Shown piece by piece: positions 5,872 to 52,276 of a stretch of 64,000 bases of DNA. The position numbers and the translations under genes were made by a program. Under the pieces are notes generated by a model. That model searched no databases. It worked only from the letters and a program-made list of their open reading frames with translations, and was not told the DNA's origin. Every line of letters starts with the position of its first letter. Positions within the stretch are counted from its first letter, which is position 1. Source of the stretch: Acorus gramineus (lineage: Eukaryota > Streptophyta > Magnoliopsida > Acorales > Acoraceae); contig CM060852.1 in NCBI GenBank assembly GCA_030737835.1, positions 3,711,813-3,775,812 of the forward strand, read 5' to 3'.

Positions 5872-8359
5872 ATGGCAGTTCTAAACTTTTTGGTGTTGGA
5901 TTCATTACCGCTTGGTTTTGGGTTTCATCCAACAGATGCTGAACTCATTTCACATTATTTGAAGAACAAAATACTTGGTCAAAATATGGATGTTGAAGTG
6001 ATACCAGAGATAGATATATATAAGCATGAGCCATGGGACTTGCCTGGTAATTTCATTTCTGTAGAGTCTTAGGTTTTTTGTATTTGTGAAATATGAAAAG
6101 TATTTTGGTGTTTACAAGAATGCTTAATGGGAGTTCTCATGTGATTTAATCGTGAAATCTTACTTGCATGTAGATATCTGCTTCATTGGCCAGTGTATAT
6201 TAGTTGTTCCTGTTTTATTATATTTCTCACAGCATAAAATTCATCTTTCAGCTAAATCTCCCATACCCTCCAAAGATTGCAAGTGGCATTTTTTCAATGC
6301 AAGAGACAGAAAGTACCCCAATGGTTCTCGCTCAAATAGGGCCACAGTAGCAGGCTATTGGAAGTCTACTGGCAAGGACCGGAATATCAAAATCCGTAAT
6401 CGTGCAATTGGGACCAAGAAAACCTTAGTGTTTCATAAAGGTCGTCCTCCTTGCGGAGATCGCACTGATTGGATTATGCATGAATACCATCTGAATGAGA
6501 CTGAATGCAAAGGTGCACCTGGTATGAAGGTAATCATTTTGTACTTGCCCCTTTTTTGTCATTTCATATTTTAGTCTGTTATCACTCTTGTATTTAGTAT
6601 TCTTCATTTCCTGTATCTTGTTGTCAATAACTTGACCGTGGAATAAGTTTAACTCCATTATATATTGTAGATTTTATGTTTGTTTGTTTGTTTGTTTTTC
6701 TTGATGATGCGTGTTTATTAACTTATCTAGCAAGAAATTTAGTCAATGAAGATTCTCTCTTTATATGTCCCTGATTGTCTGTCTTTGATGTGTTTCCTCA
6801 TATTTAACCTCAAATAACCTCTTTAAGGATTAGCCAACTATTGATGATATACTCATGGACATGCTTCCTAGAGCAAATGAGTATTATAAAATTTGTTTGT
6901 TGAATTTGGTAAGGATCTCATGTTCAAGTTGTGCGTGAAGAGTGCATATTTTTCGAATAAAAAAAAAAGGTGTGCTTATCTTTCTTTTTTTGCTTGATCA
7001 CAGGATGCTTTTGTTATCTGCCGCATCACGAAAAAGAACGGAATGGGCTCAGAAGATGATGATGATCTTCCTTCAAATTTCACAGATGAAAACTCACACC
7101 TTCCAGAGGAGGACCCTCCCAGTCCGCCTAAAGTTTTAGATCCTACCTTGGAAATGGTAAAGGAGGAACCGCCCAGTCCACCTAAAGTTTTAAATCCCAG
7201 TCAGAGTGCAGTTGCAGATCCTGCTTGGCCTGAGGTTTCAAATCCCAATCTGCCTGAAGTTGTAGATGACTATGAGGCATGGTGCAATGAACTCTTATAT
7301 GTGGACATCGATAAAACTTATCTCACAGGGGATTCCAATATTAAATTTCAGGTATGTCATGTTTTGTTACACCTGGTTGATGTTTTAATCTCCTCAACTA
7401 AATTGGTATCTGAACAGTGTGTCATGTAATACGAACAAATAAAAGCATTCAATCCCTTATTCACATGAAAGAACTCAGATCTATATGGACTCCATTCACT
7501 TAGTTTCATTAAGATCCCATTTTCAGACCATCAACAGGATTCATGTGGAACAATGTGCTATTTTCAACTGATTCTTACTGAAAAATAAATTTATTATCAT
7601 AGTACATCTCTGCATTGGTGTTTAATATTTTTATGCTTCAAATTTGATACTACAAAAAAAATGCAAGTGTATCTCATATCTTCTTGTGTAATTCAGGCAC
7701 CAGTGGTAGACAACGTGCCTTCTCCAAAACAAGATATGGGAGGTTATGTTTCGGAGCCCAATCATCAGCTTGATATCTATGCAAGCTCCAATGAGCTCCC
7801 CTTCCTTCCTGCATATACGTATCTGGAAATGCCTGGTGGTGTTGAGTTCTCTCCCTTTATGACTGAGGAACATTCAGTGAACAGTTACCTATTTGACAAC
7901 GGATTCAACATGGATGATGTTTTAACAGCAGCAGATCTGCAGAGCCCAACTCATGCAAATAACACCACCAATGATACCGGAATCCAAATCCGACAGCGTC
8001 ATCCAATCCCCACAGATGAAGAGCAAAATAAAAGGATCAGGCTCCAGGTGCACAAATCAAGCAGCTCTGTAACGGTGAATCAAACTGTCAAGTTTGTCAA
8101 TAGAGATCACTGCCTTCGTTGCCAGGACAATGTCAGTGGGCCCCTCCAAGTGAAATCTGAATCAGAGCCGTCTATGCTTGATCACAAGGCCACGAGTAAA
8201 CCCCGACAAAGGAAATCGGCTTCACCAGATCAGGTCCAGAAAAGAGCCTCTCACCGACGTTGTTCATCAGCTGTTTTGGTGGTGACCTGTGTCATGGGAG
8301 CAGCTGCCCTGACATGTGGTTTTCTCATGAAAAATGCTTGGAGTTACAGGTTCATCTGA
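5872..8359 (+). CDS. Membrane-tethered NAC transcription factor (NTL type)
   Basis: Four coding exons, 5872-6046, 6252-6529, 7004-7351 and 7697-8359, join in phase into 487 residues. The NAC DNA-binding domain covers about residues 13-165: subdomain [20 protein letters not shown], then [33 protein letters not shown], the core [33 protein letters not shown] and DAFVICRI. The middle is acidic and proline-rich. The last ~30 residues hold one hydrophobic helix ([20 protein letters not shown]) followed by a short tail, so the protein should sit in a membrane until released by proteolysis, as known for NTL proteins such as ANAC013/017 and NTL6/8/9. The start is the first ATG after a clear acceptor (ttattcag) at 5853, so a 5'UTR intron is likely; GGC|GTAAGT at 5271 is one possible donor. 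Oddity: subdomain A has G where most NACs have R (usual form GFRFHPTDEEL). Confidence 0.9.
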
Positions 8360-9363: not shown

Positions 9364-12048
9364 TCAAACCCTCCGATTCCAACCCCAGAAGAATCCTTTC
9401 CTCCTCGACTCACCACCGGATTCTCCACCACCCTCCAACTCGGGCCGAGCAGACCTCGACCCAACTGAGAAGTGCCTCCTCAAAAACGGCCTCCTCACGC
9501 TGAAACTCGCTCCCATCTTCGGACCCTTCCCCTTCCACCTCCCTGACCCCACTGCCACCTCATCACCCACTTCGGAATCCGCATCCACCGCCCCTATCCT
9601 TGACATCTTGTTCCTCGACTTGACCTCAGACTCCGCCCTCTTCGGCTTCGATGACAACGGCTGCTCCCCAACCCTGCACGTCAGGCAGGGAGGGTCAAAG
9701 CGGTCTGCTTCGGGGGTCGCATGCTCGAGGCACTCTGCGTGGTAGACGTGCCCGCAGGCAAGGACAGCCACCACGGAGAGCTCGTTGTTCGTCCCCGCCA
9801 TGATTTTCTGGGCGCCCCACGGGGACTTGTTCCTCAACGGCTTTAAGCACACCCCACACGCCTTGGCATCTGTGTGTGCACCATCGATCTCGGCCGACCA
9901 CCTCTCGTCCCTCCCAGATGAGGAGGCCGCGACTAGCTCGGAGAACGCACGCGTGGACCACCCATCGGAAGAGCCACACTCGTTCGGGGACTTTGATGAG
10001 GGGGTCTGGCAGTCGGAGGACTGCCTCGAGAAATGGTGGTGGCTTGGTGAGCAGCGGGACTTCCAAGAGGGAAGCGAGTGGCTTCGGGAGGAGGGACACA
10101 ATGTGTATGCCACCGCCGCTTTGGAGATGGCGGATGGAGTGGAAGTCGAAGGTGTACAGACAGAGTCCTTTGCTGCGATGTCCGATGATTTCATGAAATC
10201 GTTTTCCTAATTAACAAGGATTATGCAACTCCAGGTCAAAAATCAAGGACTCTAAGAAAGTGGTGCAAGGCAGATGAATATAGATGCAGGAGCCGAGGAC
10301 TACTTTACAACTCACCTCAGTCGAGCAATTGCTTTGGAATGAGATATCTGCAGATAGAAACAGATTATTAGAAGAGCTAAATGTTGCAACTAGTCCTTTT
10401 GTTATTTCAAGCAACAAGGTTTCAGAAGCAGCTGAGCAGCATGATTGCATGGGACATATGACGACATAAATATGGATTCAACAGGAAGCATCTTAGTAAA
10501 TAAATTGTGTGACCAAAGACTTAATTTAAGAAAAGAGCACGGTCTAATCATATTTGCAACCTGGAAAAGAAAATGGATATACATAAACTAGACATTCTTC
10601 AACTGCTAGAAGGGAAGATATCTGCAATTGCGTGATAACATATTAACATGCACATCCATCTGTGCAACATAACCTAATTATCTATTATATCATATTCCTA
10701 ATATGCATTCATACAATTATGAGATGGAAAATGCAAAGATTAAATGCCACTTGCATTCAGGAATCCCAGAGAACCATACATTCAAAACAAGCAATCGGTG
10801 GGACAACGACGAACCAGAGACAACATTCTAGAGTGCTTTTTAGCCACAATAAGGCCCACGAGTCAAAGGAAATGAAGCACTTGAAGATTAATAAATGGGA
10901 AAAGAATCATAAGATTCATGCGTTGATCAAATGATGTTCCATCTACTCATCTAACAACCCCCTGCTCATAGAACCTGATATGGAATTTCATTTATACCAT
11001 TGCTTAGATATTGTTTTCCTCTCACTTCACTACCATACATTGGCAACTAAAAACATACATGCTTTAAGACACATTCACACAGGAATTATCATTTATGAGG
11101 GGATCCATGTAGACATTTCCACTTACTCTCAACATGAACAAACCCCATATTCTATGTCCAACCCGACAAATGACACAAATTGTCTGGGGGATTCTAGTAG
11201 AAATTTTAACAGCACCAAGCTCTCTTGCAAGTTGAGTGATCAGGAATTGGAGATCAAGTCTGCGCGCTTCTTTACCTGACAACTATGTCAACTTAAAGAT
11301 CTTTTATAATCAACATAAGACCCAAAGCATTAACCAAGATATTAATTATACTCACAGCATGTGGACCAGAATGAAACATTGTAGCCTTTTCAGCTTAAGT
11401 ATCAAACTTTACAAACAGGTTGTATAAAAAATCAGTTTCAAAATGAAAGATATCCATGCCTAGAGCTACAAACTGCTGATCAGAAACTAATGAACAATTC
11501 TAGAGTGCATGTATCACAAAGCCCTCCACACAATGCCTTCTAATGTAAAATGAAATATGTACCGAAAAAGAACTAATTATTCCTCACATAACTGAGATTT
11601 TCAACATGAACACATTCCATTGCTAATACAAACATAAGGACAATCACGAAAATAGTACAATTGTATAACGATTTAAAAAATAGAAAGCATTACCTAAAGT
11701 ACCAGCTGCAGAGTTCCCAGGGGTCCCCTCACTAACTGGGGACTTCTGCCACGACGGGGTCTGCAAGGAATCCAACAGGCTCCCTCCATCAGACAGGCCC
11801 TCATTCTCCGTGTCCCCTCCGGTCTTGATCTCCGACTCAATGCACCCGCTGTCTATTTGAGGAAGCTGCACAAGATCATCGGCAACCCCTTCCACGTGCG
11901 TCCGGCTGTCCCACCGGAAGCTCCACGAAGGGGAATACCTGGCCTGCCTCCTATGTGTGGCTTCTACAACATGGGTACTGCTTGGAAACGAACGGGTTCT
12001 GTTCACCAGGGTTTTCTCCCGTGCCGCAACACAACAGACACCACCCAT
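9364..12048 (-). CDS. RING-H2 zinc-finger protein (plant MGGVCCVAAR family)
   Basis: Exon 1 (about 12048-11694) encodes MGGVCCVAAREK, the typical start of a plant RING family, then SPSWSFRWDSR and LSDGGS; it ends at AG|GTAATG (GCTG|GTACTT at 11703 is the alternative). The large last exon (10206-9364) encodes QSSD..SPNECGSSDGWSTRAFSEL and then a RING-H2 finger: CGVC, a long loop, CGH, VYH, AEC and PPCLTC (C3H2C3). It ends in the basic family tail KGFFWGWNRRV. The domain predicts a ubiquitin E3 ligase; a Gly-Cys-Cys near the N terminus could allow lipid anchoring (inference). Problem: both possible exon-1 donors leave one base over, while the last exon starts in phase 0 at ttaattag|gaaaac. At least one small exon between 10207 and 11693 is therefore probably missing from this model. 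The last exon is much more GC-rich than the introns. Confidence 0.8.
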
Positions 12049-35291: not shown

Positions 35292-38200
35292 TCATGATGC
35301 GTCGGATGCTGACACGCCATCCTCATGTCGAAGGCTGTTATCTCTTCTATAAATAGCCTTGGCACCCTAATATATGATAGAGAAATAAAATACATGTAAA
35401 AGCATGCGTCTGCCAAATTTCCTTTTCATGATAAGATCTTCAAAGAAAATGAAAGCATATCATGTAAGGGCATGCACACCTAACTGTCATCACATACCCT
35501 TGGAGGAACAGAGACTCAGTTTGAACAAACTTTAACTTACTTGGAAAATGGTCCCCAACTTCTTCAATGCTTTGGCTCGTAACTTGAGCACATCCTTCGT
35601 AACACTGCTGTCTTTAAGCACCTGATATATGATATGAGGCATTTACAAATCACAATTGTCTCTATCTAAAGGAAAATAAAGGTAGAGAATGACCAAGGCT
35701 CACCGCATTGCAGACATGTGAAAGGGTTGACTCGATATCTACAACATTGATCTTCCACAAAGAATTTATCATAGCATCCTTCTTTTCTTCAATGAGCTTT
35801 AATGCGTTCTCTTGTTTATTTTCACCTTCCTCTAACCTCTTCATCCCTTCTTGTATCTGAATCAAAGATACAGCACCTAACATTTCAAAGACAAGGGAAC
35901 TCCTTCAAAAAAATTAATTGAATTTCTATATGAAAGTGCAAATAAATTACCTTCAAACGGGCTTATCACAGAGGACTCAGATATGCAGAATGAGCTATTA
36001 CCTGCAGCCGCTGTAACTTGTGATTTGATGAGATGGCCTTTATCTCGCACCCACTCTGCTATGTAAGGTACCCCCATAAACAATTTGCTCTTCCCAAGTT
36101 CTTTTGCAGCTCTTCTTGTGTAAATATACCCAATCGTGTGAAGCATAGCCTCGCCAAAAGCTGAATGTTGAAGTACATTAAAATTCACATGTAAAGCATG
36201 TGAGAAAACATATAAATTTAATAAGCATTGTTGTCTATTCAGCATGTAGGTCACACCTATTGTTAGTAATCAATCAGTTTACATTTAATTTAAGCAACAG
36301 CATATCCTATTTCCAAGAACCTGGGAATGAGAAAAATCAGATTTAGTTTGAAATAACTGAAAACGTTGAATTTTGACAACTGAATCCCTCATTATTATTT
36401 TCTCTGTGAGGAATAATTTTGAGGGTGGATGCCTCATTATTACATTTATGAGTTTGTGATGAACCACAAATTTTGTGGAATTACCATCATTAAGATTAAT
36501 CAAGCATATCACATATGAATATTTTTCACTCCGGGGATGATAAATTTAGGTAATGGACAAGAGCACATTTAATAGCCTAATATAGAATAGCTTTATGCAC
36601 ATTAAAATGATATACAGATATCTGACCTGCTTGTGAAAGGTGCTTGGCTTCTGAATTAGCCCAACTTACAAACTCATCATGCTGACCTTCAACATATGGT
36701 TGAAGTCGACTTTTGAGATTTTGTGCAAGTTTTTCTTCCCTTGTTTTTTGCAAATCCTGCATTTTTAACAAGATACAATGTATCACATTTAGTGGGGCAA
36801 GAAAATGAAGTTCATAGAAACTATCAGATTATACTTGGTTATGCAGAACCATTAAAATTGTACAAGAAATTAAATCCTTAATAAGTATTTTTCACAAAGC
36901 ACAACAGTATAATTGATGTCAGTTAGCTCAATCAACCAAAAATCCTCTAAAATATCAAAATGATATTTCTCCAAGGAAAATTAATTATGTCGGTGGCATA
37001 CATCCCTTCCTCGAAAATTATCTTGCAAACTAACATGCAACTGGATAAAGACTGTCAGCAATATGTATTAAAATTTACTGATGAAATGGAATCTCAGAAT
37101 GATGTGGATCAGACCCATTATTTTGGAAGCAACGTGTGTTTTGCTTCATTTCCTTTTTCGTCTTGATGGGCCCCAATTGTCTAGCAAACCAAGTTGAAAG
37201 GAAATCTTCAAGCAATCTGCTTTACTGGGACTAGATTTGGAAGAAACAATTCCCGAAGGCAATGAACAAGACACAGTGAGATGAATTATACCTGAGAGGG
37301 GATCTGCCAAAATATTTTTTATTTTTTCATATCGTCTGTGTCAAGAGAAGTGCAATTGCATGTCTCTAAGGAGTAAGGAGATATCTTTTTTTTTATACCA
37401 TGTAATTATGCATAGAAAATTGGTCCTCTTGAATAGGTTTTATCACTTCTTTCTTACGTAAAAGGCTGGTTCTTAAGAAACATAGGACAGGATGGTCATG
37501 CTACACAGTCAAATTTAAGTTTTTAGTGATGTCATACACTGCTACCACCCTTAATACCAAAACATTTTGGTGCAGACCGGCAGTCTAGCACATGCATCCA
37601 AGGATTCAAAAAACAAAAAACAGTAATTAATCTAATGATCGATGGAGTAGAATAACTTCATCAAAACTAAATAATACAACACACCTTCAATTTTTCATGA
37701 ACCTTCTGTGCCCGGACTTCTGGGACCTGTTCCTCCTCTTCCATTTCTACAGATGATATAGAAGCCAATGCGAGTTGCCCAACATAGTCTTCAAAATATT
37801 CACTTCCAAAAAGCATCCCGAATACAGCAGCAGGGTCCATCATGGAATCCCTGAATTGACAAATGATAATCAGAATTGATGATATCATATATCAGGTACT
37901 CGTTGCATAAAAAAGGTCAATGTGAAACAAGATAATTGAATCTATATACTACTTGTATTTAATTCGAAATAAAAATACCAACCAGAATTGGAAAGAAAAC
38001 TTCAGTCACATGAAAATCCTTTAAACATCATATAATCTGAATTTCGCTTACTGATGTTCATGGAAACTTACTGAGGAACCCCTTCCTTTCCATGTTTGTC
38101 ATATGCCTCACGCTTTCCTTGGTCACTTAGAACTTGATATGCCTCCCCAAGAACCTTTATATAAGATGGTCTAATCAGAATTAATTGAGCTCAAACATCA

Positions 38201-41288: not shown

Positions 41289-42902
41289 ATGGAAGCCATC
41301 ACCATGAGTCAGGCACTGCAGCTTCACCCTCAAACTGGTCCTTCCTCCCAAAACCTAAACCCACATGCCTCCAACACCACCATCAGATCTCTGGCAAATG
41401 GAGATGACCCTGAAAAGGCCCTCCTCTTCTACATAGCCCTGCAAAGACAAAACCAACCTCTAAAGCCAAACAACTTCACTTACCCTCCCCTCCTCAAGTC
41501 TTGCAGCAGATTAAGAGCAGCCTCTGAAGGGAAGCAACTCCATTGCCTAATCCATAAGAGTGGTCTACATAAAGACATGTTCACACAGAACTCCCTCATC
41601 CACATGTACTCAAGTTTCCAAGAATCAGAACCTGCGGTGGCGGTGTTCGAAAGAATTACTCAGAAAGACGTCGTCTCCTGGACCTCGATCATATGCGGGA
41701 GAGTCGATAATGGCCATCCGATCGAAGCTCTGCGTCTGTTTGATCGAATGCGGGGTGACAATGTTGCACCTAATGAGGCGACCATCGTCTCTGTCTTGCG
41801 AGCTTGTGCGGATGTTGGCGCACTTAGCTTCGGTCAGAAGGTTCACAAGTGCGTGATTCGGGATGGAATCGCTTGTAGGGTTAATGTGATCTCGGCTTTG
41901 ATAGACATGTATGCGAAATGCGGGTGCATAGAAAGTGCGAAGAGGGTGTTCGAGAACAGAGGAGGCATCAAAGGCGACGTCTTTGTGTGGACGGCTATGG
42001 TTCATGGGCTCGCGAGCAATGAGAGGTGCGGCGAAGCTCTCGATGTTTTTAATCGGATGAGAGATTTGGGTGTGAGACCGAATGCGAGGACTGCGACTGC
42101 GGTCCTGTGCGCCTGCAGAAATGCAGGGTGGGTTGATGTGGGATATCAGTTTTTCAAGAGGTTACCTGATTATGGGATACAGCCTGAAATACAGCACTAT
42201 GGATGTGTGGTCGATCTTCTTGCGAGGGCGGGATATCTGGAGGAGGCGGAAGAGCTCGCCAAAATGATTCCGGACGAGCCTGATGAGATTACATGGCGGA
42301 CATTGATATGGGCATGTAAGGCTCATGGAGACATAGATCGAGCTGAACGTTTGGTGGATGAATGGCTTTTGAGAATGGATGAAAATGATGGAAGTAATTA
42401 TGTGCTTCTTGGTAATGTTTATGCGAAAGCTGGGAAGTGGGAAGAGAAAGCGAGATTGAGAGAATCGATGGTTCAGAAAAGTATACGAAAAGAACCAGGA
42501 TTCAGCAGGATTGAATTGGGTGGAAGGATTCACGAATTTGTAGCAGGAGATTCTGATCATCCACAAGCCAAGAGAATTTATGAGAGGTGGAATCAGATCA
42601 TGAAAATGATGATAGAAGAAGGTTATAAGCCAAAGCTGTCGGAGGTATTGCTGAACGTGGATGATGAAACGAAGGCTTCGCAGCTGCACCACCACAGTGA
42701 GAAACTTGCTGTTGCATTTGGGCTGATCAGTACCAGACCAGGGACCAAAATATTGGTTGTGAAGAACTTGAGATCCTGTGAGGACTGCCATGCATCAATG
42801 AAGCTTGTTTCCAAGATCACACGGAGGGAAATAGTCATAAGGGATCGAATTAGATTCCATCATTTCAGCAATGGGGCCTGTTCTTGTGGGGATTACTGGT
42901 AG
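41289..42902 (+). CDS. PPR protein with C-terminal DYW domain
   Basis: A single intronless frame of 537 residues, as is usual for plant PPR genes. PLS-type pentatricopeptide repeats run from about residue 60 to 340: FTYPPLLKSCSRL, GKQLHCLIHKSGL, NSLIHMYSS, KDVVSWTSIICG, ALIDMYAKCGCIESAKRVF and PNARTATAVLCACRNAG. E and E+ motifs follow (VLLGNVYAKAGKWEEKARL, KEPGFSRIELGG). The DYW domain closes the protein: HHHSEKLAVAFGL with the HxE cytidine-deaminase signature, CEDCH as the zinc CxxC, and the last residues CSCGDYW. Such proteins bind organelle RNA and edit C to U in plastids or mitochondria; the target is not predictable by eye. The number of repeats is modest. The first Met (41289) or the sixth residue Met (41304) could start it; both precede a Ser/Thr-rich leader. 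It lies in an otherwise gene-poor stretch and is GC-richer than its flanks. Confidence 0.95.
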   Translation: MEAITMSQALQLHPQTGPSSQNLNPHASNTTIRSLANGDDPEKALLFYIALQRQNQPLKPNNFTYPPLLKSCSRLRAASEGKQLHCLIHKSGLHKDMFTQNSLIHMYSSFQESEPAVAVFERITQKDVVSWTSIICGRVDNGHPIEALRLFDRMRGDNVAPNEATIVSVLRACADVGALSFGQKVHKCVIRDGIACRVNVISALIDMYAKCGCIESAKRVFENRGGIKGDVFVWTAMVHGLASNERCGEALDVFNRMRDLGVRPNARTATAVLCACRNAGWVDVGYQFFKRLPDYGIQPEIQHYGCVVDLLARAGYLEEAEELAKMIPDEPDEITWRTLIWACKAHGDIDRAERLVDEWLLRMDENDGSNYVLLGNVYAKAGKWEEKARLRESMVQKSIRKEPGFSRIELGGRIHEFVAGDSDHPQAKRIYERWNQIMKMMIEEGYKPKLSEVLLNVDDETKASQLHHHSEKLAVAFGLISTRPGTKILVVKNLRSCEDCHASMKLVSKITRREIVIRDRIRFHHFSNGACSCGDYW

Positions 42903-49507: not shown

Positions 49508-49993
49508 TCAGTACTGAAAAATGTCTGCAGAGGCCATGATGGGCTGGTTCACACAGAACAAGTTGTTGTTCCATGGATTCATGGAGAACCCATCAATGGT
49601 GGCAGCCTGAGTTTCATCATAGAACAACCCATTAGCATTGTTTCCTCCTCCATTGTTCATGTAGTGGATGATCTCATTGAGGGACTGAAGTCTAGTGCTC
49701 AATTCAATCATCTGAGTCCGAAGGACCGAATTCTCCGATTCGAAGCGCGAGTAATGCTGGGTAGTGATGTTAAGGCTCGTTATGATCTGGCTGTTCTCCT
49801 TCCTCAGCTGGTTCACCTGCGCCAACAGATCGTCCAGATGCTTCTGCTTTCGCATCCTGGACCGCCTCGCAGACTCTCGATTCGACAGCATTCGCTTCTG
49901 CTTTCGTTGGTTCATCACCATCTGGAGGTCCTCCTCGGACCCAGAGTTTGGGAGGTGAGTAGATCCTGAAGAAGTACCACTTGAAGAAGCCAT
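49508..49993 (-). CDS. S1-group bZIP transcription factor (bZIP11/2/44-like)
   Basis: An intronless frame of 161 residues, typical for S1 bZIPs. It has a Ser/Gly-rich start, then the basic region NQRKQKRMLSNRESARRSR with the invariant N-x7-R spacing, then a leucine zipper from about residue 50 to 105 (heptad residues in LDDLLAQVNQLRKENSQI). A family tail DGFSMNPWNNNLF lies near the C terminus. S1 bZIPs bind ACGT-core promoters, pair with C-group bZIPs, and reprogram amino-acid and sugar metabolism under low energy. What fixes the subgroup is the leader: a sucrose-control peptide is encoded upstream (50346-50221), so translation of this gene is expected to fall when sucrose is high. The first in-frame ATG follows a leader with no ATG between the uORF stop and the main start. 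Confidence 0.95.
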   Translation of the reverse strand: MASSSGTSSGSTHLPNSGSEEDLQMVMNQRKQKRMLSNRESARRSRMRKQKHLDDLLAQVNQLRKENSQIITSLNITTQHYSRFESENSVLRTQMIELSTRLQSLNEIIHYMNNGGGNNANGLFYDETQAATIDGFSMNPWNNNLFCVNQPIMASADIFQY

Positions 49994-50220
49994 AGATGCT
50001 TATAATTGTGTATATACACAACACCCACCAATAAAAACTAGGATTTGGGGATGATAAGCAGGTCCCAGATAGTCCCAGATAGTAGTACTAGTTAATAAAA
50101 GACTTGATTTTTATAATTTTGGGCTTGAATTATTTTGATTGAACTATAGATATATATATCTATATATATATAAAAGGGAAGCAAAAGCAGGACCCTATAG
50201 ACTTCAGAGAGACAGAGAGT

Positions 50221-50346
50221 TCATGAAAACACGTAGAACCAGTAGAGGAAGACAACAGAGAATGACTGAACTAAGTGGGTCCTGCGTCGGAGGGAGGAGT
50301 TGATCATAAACCCGGACCGGATAATCTCACTGATAATAGGAGACAT
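50221..50346 (-). CDS. Sucrose-control uORF (SC-peptide) of the S1 bZIP
   Basis: 41 codons plus stop, 227 bases upstream of the bZIP start. It begins MSPIISEIIRSGFMINSS and ends THLVQSFSVVFLYWFYVFS then stop. As I remember it, the C-terminal part is identical to the sucrose-control peptide of Arabidopsis bZIP11, which stalls ribosomes during termination when sucrose is high and so represses the main frame. The N-terminal half (MSP-SEI--SGF-INS) also matches the Arabidopsis pattern, so selection has held the peptide, not just the tail. It overlaps the shorter uORF at 50374-50327 in another frame. Confidence 0.95.
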   Translation of the reverse strand: MSPIISEIIRSGFMINSSLRRRTHLVQSFSVVFLYWFYVFS

Positions 50347-50374
50347 GAAGCAGGTACATCAAAATATAATTCAT
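50327..50374 (-). CDS. Short overlapping uORF upstream of the SC-uORF
   Basis: 15 codons plus stop (MNYILMYLLHVSYYQ). It starts 28 bases before the SC-uORF start and ends inside it in a different reading frame. bZIP11-type leaders are known to hold several overlapping uORFs, and this one could tune how many ribosomes reach the SC-uORF start. It is small, so function is inferred from position only. Confidence 0.5.
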   Translation of the reverse strand: MNYILMYLLHVSYYQ

Positions 50375-50748
50375 GTGAAACACAAAGAGGGTTGTTTAAG
50401 ATTGGGTTTTCAGGCCTTGATTGAACAAGACCCAATTGAAGGATTCCTTCAAAAGGAGGGACCTTGAGACTGAAAAATCAAAACTTGGTGCAGAAAAACA
50501 GGATATCTGAACCAGAAACTCAAAACCCAACAGCAGAAAATTTAGCAGAGGATCCCCTCACAAACAGATAGGATTCTGAGCCTCAAAAGCCACCCCAAAC
50601 TCACAAAAAAAAACCCCCCAAAATCACAAAAAAACAGAACTTCAGAAGCTCAAAAAAGAAAGAAATAAAAGCCAACCAAGCAAGCAAATGAAAGCTTGAG
50701 GAAGGAAGAAGAAGAGAAAGAGGTTTGTGGATTTGTAAGTTATGAGAC

Positions 50749-50754
50749 TTTATA
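50749..50754 (-). promoter_or_regulatory. Putative TATA box of the bZIP gene
   Basis: TATAAA on the minus strand in the context ttctataaagtct, followed by a pyrimidine-rich leader (cctctttctcttcttcttcc). A start near 50720 would give a leader of about 730 bases, long enough to hold both uORFs and no other conserved frame. Confidence 0.5.
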
Positions 50755-50759
50755 GAAGA

Positions 50760-52276
50760 AAGAGAGAGAGAGCCCACCATATAATAAAAACATAAATAAA
50801 TAAATGAAATCAAAGAAAAGGAGCATTGGAATCTGCTCTCACACAGTTTGATGAGGGCATGTGGGGGGTGGGAGAGAGATTTCCACACAATCGTCCATTT
50901 TCACAGCTGTGGTGTTACAATTTTGGGTCCCACTTCACCTTCGCAGCCAAAAGAAACCATTGTTGTTTTCCATTTATTATTATGTGAAGATTCACAGAAC
51001 CAGTCAATCCATGGGGCGATCTCCTTTGATCTCACACACCATTCACACCACTTACCCTTTTTTTGGGGATGCGTGATTTATAAAAATAGACATGTTTTTC
51101 TTGACTTTAGGTTAATTTTTTTTTTATTATATTTTGAGCTACAATATTTCTTTTTATTCCCGTTATCAGATCCCACTGAATCCTACTGGGAGTGATTGTA
51201 TTTGTCAATACAAAATATTATAATTAGTCATTTCTATTCACTGTAGAATAATATACATGATTTTAATTTTTTTAAAATCGGATACCATGTCAGGCATCTA
51301 GCAATAATAAGAAATATATTATTGAACTTTTTATACATTTATTAAAAATAGATATATTCAATTTAAAATAAAACGATATACATTTTTTTTATATAAAAAA
51401 TAACTAATTAGATGATATTTGTTATTTAAAAATAATAATTAAAACATGTGCAAACTGAATGTAGAACTGCATTTGAAGTTGTATCTAACATTATTCATAA
51501 TTTTATAATAATGCATATGTATTTTGATAAATAAAGTACATAGCTCCAATGGATCAATACATACAATGTTATATTTTTATAATGGAGGAAATACTAGTAC
51601 AATGTTTAGAGAGAAAGACTGAAAGATAATACGTGTGTTGGACAAGTGATTTACATCTCTCTCTCTCTCTCTCAGGGGCTGGTCCCCTGCCAGGACCAGT
51701 AACAGATCATTTGATATGCATACATTGAACATGAATCATAGTTGGAATCACTGTACACATTCCATGGCACACCCCCACAAAGGACCCAGGATCATGTGTG
51801 CCCAAGTTTCAGTCGCCAATTTAGAAGGGGCTCCACTAAAGAAACTTTTTGGTTTGCCTTGTTATAAGAGGTATTTGCTTTTGGAAAATATTACCCACAA
51901 TATTTTTTATAGCCACAAATGCAATGGGTGCATGTTTAGATTTTTTTTTTTAAAAAAAAAAATTGTGTACATCATTTAATGGGATGTATAAGATTGTGAA
52001 CGAGACGAAAAATATAATTTTAATTTTAGAAAACTTACTTTTGTTATGTTTATGCAAGGATGTAACTAAAAACAACTTTTGTTTTTTTTTAAAACAGAAT
52101 CTTTTAAAACTATTCAAACTTGTTTCCATACGCTTTCTTAATCACAAAGCACTAAACTTTTGTGCTCATCGACCGGGTACCTCTTGTAATTGTTGACATA
52201 AAATGCTTATGTTCACTTAATGCGTTTAGAGTATGCATTTTTTTTTTATGGTTTACCATATTACTTATAATTTTAA
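50760..52276. other. Intergenic DNA, upstream of the bZIP gene
   Basis: A CT microsatellite lies at about 51656-51674. Several open stretches (for example 51716-51979) have no family resemblance. No gene is visible. Confidence 0.4.

Follow-up and report, generated by a model that had tools for sequence, protein, structure and literature searches.

The stretch of Acorus gramineus DNA analysed here (64,000 nucleotides, hereafter the window) carries on its minus strand a gene for a small bZIP transcription factor, and the question raised by this locus is whether the leader of the gene contains a sucrose-control uORF (SC-uORF) of the kind described for Arabidopsis bZIP11 (AtbZIP11, also named ATB2 or GBF6). 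The initial annotation had proposed that it does, placing in the leader a 41-residue uORF together with a 15-codon uORF that overlaps the start of the former in another frame. Both uORFs were found upstream of the 161-aa bZIP ORF, the overlap amounts to 20 nt, and the span 50221..50374 consists of exactly these two frames. As an inventory of uORFs, the proposal was right for the two that it listed and incomplete otherwise, i.e. the strand, the ATG of uORF1 at 50359, the Met codon of the SC frame at 50307 and a third uORF were missing. The positions of the features are collected in Table 1.

Table 1. Features of the bZIP gene and its inferred leader, in window positions
Feature	Position	Strand	Description
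Inferred 5' part of leader	50375..50725	-	65% pyrimidine, ATG-free
uORF1	50327..50374	-	15 codons; first ATG at 50374, second in-frame ATG at 50359
SC-uORF (uORF2)	50221..50346	-	41 codons + TGA; first ATG at 50346
C-terminal part of SC-uORF	50221..50307	-	28 codons from the internal in-frame Met14, ATG at 50307
uORF3	50204..50224	-	6 codons (MNSLSL); ATG at 50224 overlaps the SC stop as ATGA
Spacer, uORF3 to main ATG	49994..50203	-	210 nt, ATG-free
Main ORF, small bZIP transcription factor	49508..49993	-	161 aa, single exon

The main ORF matches the Pfam models bZIP_1 (E=1.1e-11, residues 30-88) and bZIP_2 (2.2e-07). Its basic region contains the arrangement N38-x7-R46, and the heptad positions of the zipper are occupied by L56, L63, I70, T77, F84, L91, L98, L105 and M112. 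Apart from T77, every heptad position between L56 and L105 carries a hydrophobic residue, which makes a long zipper for a small protein. A comparison with solved structures gave 12 matches up to E=1, all of them weak, with CREB (0.0081) as the best. The main ATG has T at position -3 and G at +4. The bZIP domain and the SC-uORF itself are the basis on which the gene would be assigned to the S1 group, that of AtbZIP1, 2, 11, 44 and 53. Homology group 1 of the conserved uORFs includes five Arabidopsis S1 genes (PMC2075485, PMC3426882); uORFs are not kept in all S1 genes, since one study reports them for 5 of 10 genes in poplar and for none in apple and potato (PMC11120861).

Upstream of the bZIP ORF five ATG codons are clustered within 154 nt of the same strand. 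All five are in a weak context, with C or T at -3 and a base other than G at +4. The SC-uORF starts 353 nt upstream of the bZIP ORF. The frame of uORF1 differs from that of the SC-uORF, and uORF1 ends 19 nt ahead of Met14 of the SC peptide. Both uORF1 and uORF3 are in frame with the main ORF.

The peptide encoded by the SC-uORF is MSPIISEIIRSGFMINSSLRRRTHLVQSFSVVFLYWFYVFS (41 residues). Its residues S28, S30, L34 and Y38 are located at positions -14, -12, -8 and -4 relative to the stop codon. In AtbZIP11, the residues Ser29, Ser31, Leu35 and Tyr39 of a 42-residue peptide are thought to be essential for sucrose repression (Peviani et al. 2016, PMC4960570), so that all four are kept here at equal distances from the stop, in accordance with the earlier suggestion that the C-terminal residues are those of the sucrose-control peptide. 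The same source describes the position of the SC-uORF stop as invariant across angiosperms (PMC4960570). Three residues separate the Tyr from the stop both here and in AtbZIP11, i.e. the termination position matches the angiosperm invariant.

How often such a pattern arises by chance was estimated from shuffled sequences. Across all six frames of the 64 kb, the pattern S.S...L...Y...stop has a single match, the SC-uORF, which sits just upstream of the bZIP ORF in the right orientation. In 60 shuffles the mean number of matches was 0.17, falling to 0.05 per shuffle when an in-frame ATG was also demanded. These numbers bear on the explanation that the uORFs are chance reading frames of an AT-rich, T-rich leader and that the peptide has no function. 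Length is in accordance with it: of 2000 dinucleotide-shuffled versions of the inferred leader, 65% contained an ORF of at least 41 codons, so the length of the SC-uORF is not remarkable and was dropped as evidence. The explanation is nevertheless hardly credible in view of the residues and stop distance shared with AtbZIP11, the uniqueness of the pattern in the window and its location at a bZIP gene; it is further opposed by the depletion of ATG codons on either side of the cluster in the inferred leader (see below).

Because the four residues and their distance from the stop match AtbZIP11, the pattern has no second copy in the window and a bZIP ORF lies downstream, we identify the frame as an SC-uORF. 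By analogy with the characterized members of the family, it is very probably the conserved uORF (homology group 1) of a flowering-plant S1-group bZIP gene, and would act by stalling ribosomes at its stop codon in response to sucrose. This agrees with the initial annotation, which had called it the SC-uORF of an S1 bZIP gene: the residues, the stop distance, the bZIP domain and the anatomy of the leader all fit, and a response to sucrose would be expected from the family. We note that the identification is based on the C-terminal residues. A different outcome would be an SC-uORF that has decayed or become insensitive and represses translation constitutively, at any sucrose level. That the sucrose sensitivity of this particular leader is deduced from its relatives leaves room for such a state, yet all four residues and the position of the stop are intact, which makes it very improbable.

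The extent of the leader was judged from the sequence upstream of the cluster. The TATA of a TATA-like site, CTATAAAG, lies at 50754, and for this reason the start of the leader was put near 50,725. This 5' end is a guess, and the inferred leader of 732 nt depends on it; CTATAWA was found in 337 of 6388 stretches of 130 nt of the window. A 59-codon ORF with an ATG (50601..50780, minus strand) spans the inferred start site and has no Pfam match. A scan for sigma-70 promoters was set aside as inapplicable to a plant gene.

The distribution of ATG codons in the inferred leader is uneven. The 732 nt contain 5 ATGs as compared to 10.9 expected, a number as low as this being reached in 1.85% of 2000 shuffles, and all 5 are in the cluster. 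The rest of the leader (351 nt before the cluster and 227 nt after it, 578 nt together) contains 0 ATGs where 7.0 are expected, and this was equalled in 0 of 2000 shuffles. Elsewhere in the window, at positions of either strand that do not touch 49994..50780, ATG was absent from 198 of 12,554 stretches of 227 nt and from 30 of 12,503 stretches of 351 nt, and the same ATG-free layout was found at 0 of 24,701 overlapping positions. The lack of ATGs on both sides of the cluster points to use of the long leader. The sequence suggests that this leader is scanned and that the cluster of upstream ATGs is kept by selection.

Another possibility is that the SC-uORF is functional and a second transcription start lies downstream of it, within the AT-rich spacer, where TATA-like runs are located at 50172-50156. 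The resulting short transcripts would lack the uORFs, and the gene would escape sucrose control in some tissues. There are six TATAWAW matches within the 227 nt that separate the SC-uORF from the main ATG, and the spacer is without ATG, as would suit such a leader. On the other hand, 2217 of 6378 stretches of 227 nt in the window (35%) hold a TATAWAW match, and five of the six matches fall in a simple TA repeat. Since such matches are common in the window, we keep a downstream promoter as a weak rival only, and consider it unlikely. The TA-rich run itself (50144..50172, minus strand) includes a 20-nt perfect palindrome, TATAGATATATATATCTATA, and may be a second TATA or a simple repeat. Folding of the spacer is no better than that of its shuffles (z -0.79; 41 of 200 shuffles equalled or surpassed it), and a scan of the window with Rfam at gathering scores gave no match.

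Returning to the long leader with its SC-uORF, the family suggests how the gene would be controlled. Transcription of the leader, its translation, the stalling and the response to sucrose are all expected here on the strength of what is described for the relatives. Ribosomes would scan the long leader, meet the AUGs in weak context and make the SC peptide. At high sucrose the nascent SC peptide would stall the terminating ribosome at the SC stop, scanning would be blocked and few ribosomes would reach the AUG of the bZIP ORF. For uORFs that stall ribosomes, degradome reads at -16 and -46 relative to the stop codon have been reported (PMC9305500). At low sucrose the ribosomes would terminate and reinitiate over the spacer of 210-227 nt, or scan past the SC-uORF, and the transcription factor would be made.

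The two overlaps may tune this control, i.e. that of uORF1 with the start of the SC-uORF and that of the uORF3 ATG with the SC stop. One may speculate that uORF1, through its overlap, probably reduces initiation at the first AUG of the SC frame. It is also conspicuous that, given the ATGA overlap, a ribosome that stalls at the SC stop or is released there would sit on the AUG of uORF3. One could combine these elements into a gate of two steps, in which use of uORF1 sets whether a 41-residue or a 28-residue SC peptide is made, and uORF3 catches the ribosomes released at the SC stop. If this were true, the stringency of initiation would tune the sensitivity to sucrose; we regard the scheme as a conjecture that is decidedly unlikely to hold as formulated.

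Relatives of the two proteins were also sought in other collections. These collections served as a control and might have contained stray plant sequence. For the bZIP, 4 pattern matches in a collection of viral contigs and 33 in a collection of genome contigs were obtained, none of which was confirmed as a relative. A degenerate DNA pattern of the SC core had 0 matches in the same two collections, tblastn found no relative in plasmids, and no solved structure matched the SC peptide up to E=10. Fragments of the SC peptide did not occur in the text of papers among the matches listed; published alignments are given in figures, so that this result is silent on novelty.

Several other open frames of the window match models of known families, some of them only weakly. 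At 6128..8359 (plus strand) there is a gene for a NAC transcription factor, one open frame of which matches the Pfam model NAM (3.5e-26). A downstream open frame (7589..8359, plus strand), which has no Pfam match and ends in a hydrophobic stretch, perhaps belongs to the same gene; if so, this would suggest a membrane-tethered NAC protein. The frame 41292..42902 (plus strand) encodes an intronless PPR protein with an E motif and a DYW deaminase domain, the E+ motif being just below the Pfam cut-off, and it is probably an organelle RNA editing factor. On the minus strand, an open frame at 35880..36269 matches the X-domain of DnaJ-containing proteins (7.1e-17), and one at 9367..10206 is matched weakly by seven RING-finger models, all under the Pfam cut-offs.

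The leader can be compared with those that have been described in the literature. According to a review (PMC2738917), AtbZIP11 has uORFs of 18, 42, 5 and 18 residues in a leader of 547 nt. A study of AtbZip11 translation (PMC3020687) lists five upstream AUGs, apparently named 1, 2a, 2b, 3 and 4, of which uAUG1 and uAUG2a are weak, groups uORF2 and uORF3 as a cluster, and gives a spacer of 213 nt in its reporter. The present leader resembles this arrangement in that it is long, contains five upstream AUGs, has an internal in-frame AUG in the SC frame and carries a small uORF3 clustered with the SC-uORF. The weak context of all five upstream AUGs here parallels that of uAUG1 and uAUG2a there. 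The sizes are also close: the SC-uORF has 41 codons here and 42 in AtbZIP11, uORF3 has 6 as compared to 5, and the spacer is 210 nt as compared to the 213 nt of the reporter. There are differences as well, since uORF1 has 15 codons with two AUGs here and 18 codons in AtbZIP11, and the fourth uORF of AtbZIP11 has no counterpart in this leader. Translation of the AtbZip11 mRNA is reported to need reinitiation, aided by eIF3h and RPL24B (PMC3020687), and changing the internal start of the Arabidopsis uORF2 into a stop codon is reported to abolish repression (PMC2738917).

Tobacco tbz17 carries three uORFs; the SC-uORF comes second among them, includes a further Met and mediates sucrose repression (PMC3310857). 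The order of the uORFs and the second Met are the same here; the uORFs of tbz17, in contrast, use three frames, whereas uORF1 and uORF3 of the present leader share that of the main ORF, and sucrose repression has been demonstrated for tbz17 while here it would follow from family membership. Such demonstrations have been published for tobacco and for two gymnosperm leaders (PMC4960570, PMC3310857, PMC7284334), and further work of 2017 on this subject is cited in PMC7284334 and PMC11883436.

The SC-uORF of strawberry FvebZIPs1.1 is described as having two starts and a conserved pair of Arg residues, and alleles edited at these positions show higher translation of the main ORF and more sugar in the fruit (PMC7470447). 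The SC frame here likewise has two start codons and several Arg residues in a row (Arg20-22). In strawberry, the edited positions at the two starts and the two Arg codons occupy a stretch of about 15 nt; here the first ATG and Arg22 together span 66 nt, and the distance of the Arg run from both starts is unlike that in strawberry. The N-terminal part of the SC-uORF thus differs from that of strawberry and a match of the Arg residues is not established; a proposed match of the internal Met and the Arg pair to strawberry was accordingly withdrawn, as the features are present but the spacing differs.

Taken as it stands, the locus adds a plant gene to those that should be annotated with an SC-uORF, and it is a candidate for work on sugar control like that carried out in tobacco and strawberry. 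The switch itself is known, and the present gene is a clear but ordinary new instance of it; no new question is opened, since for Arabidopsis the literature already describes the element, the residues that matter and how it acts.
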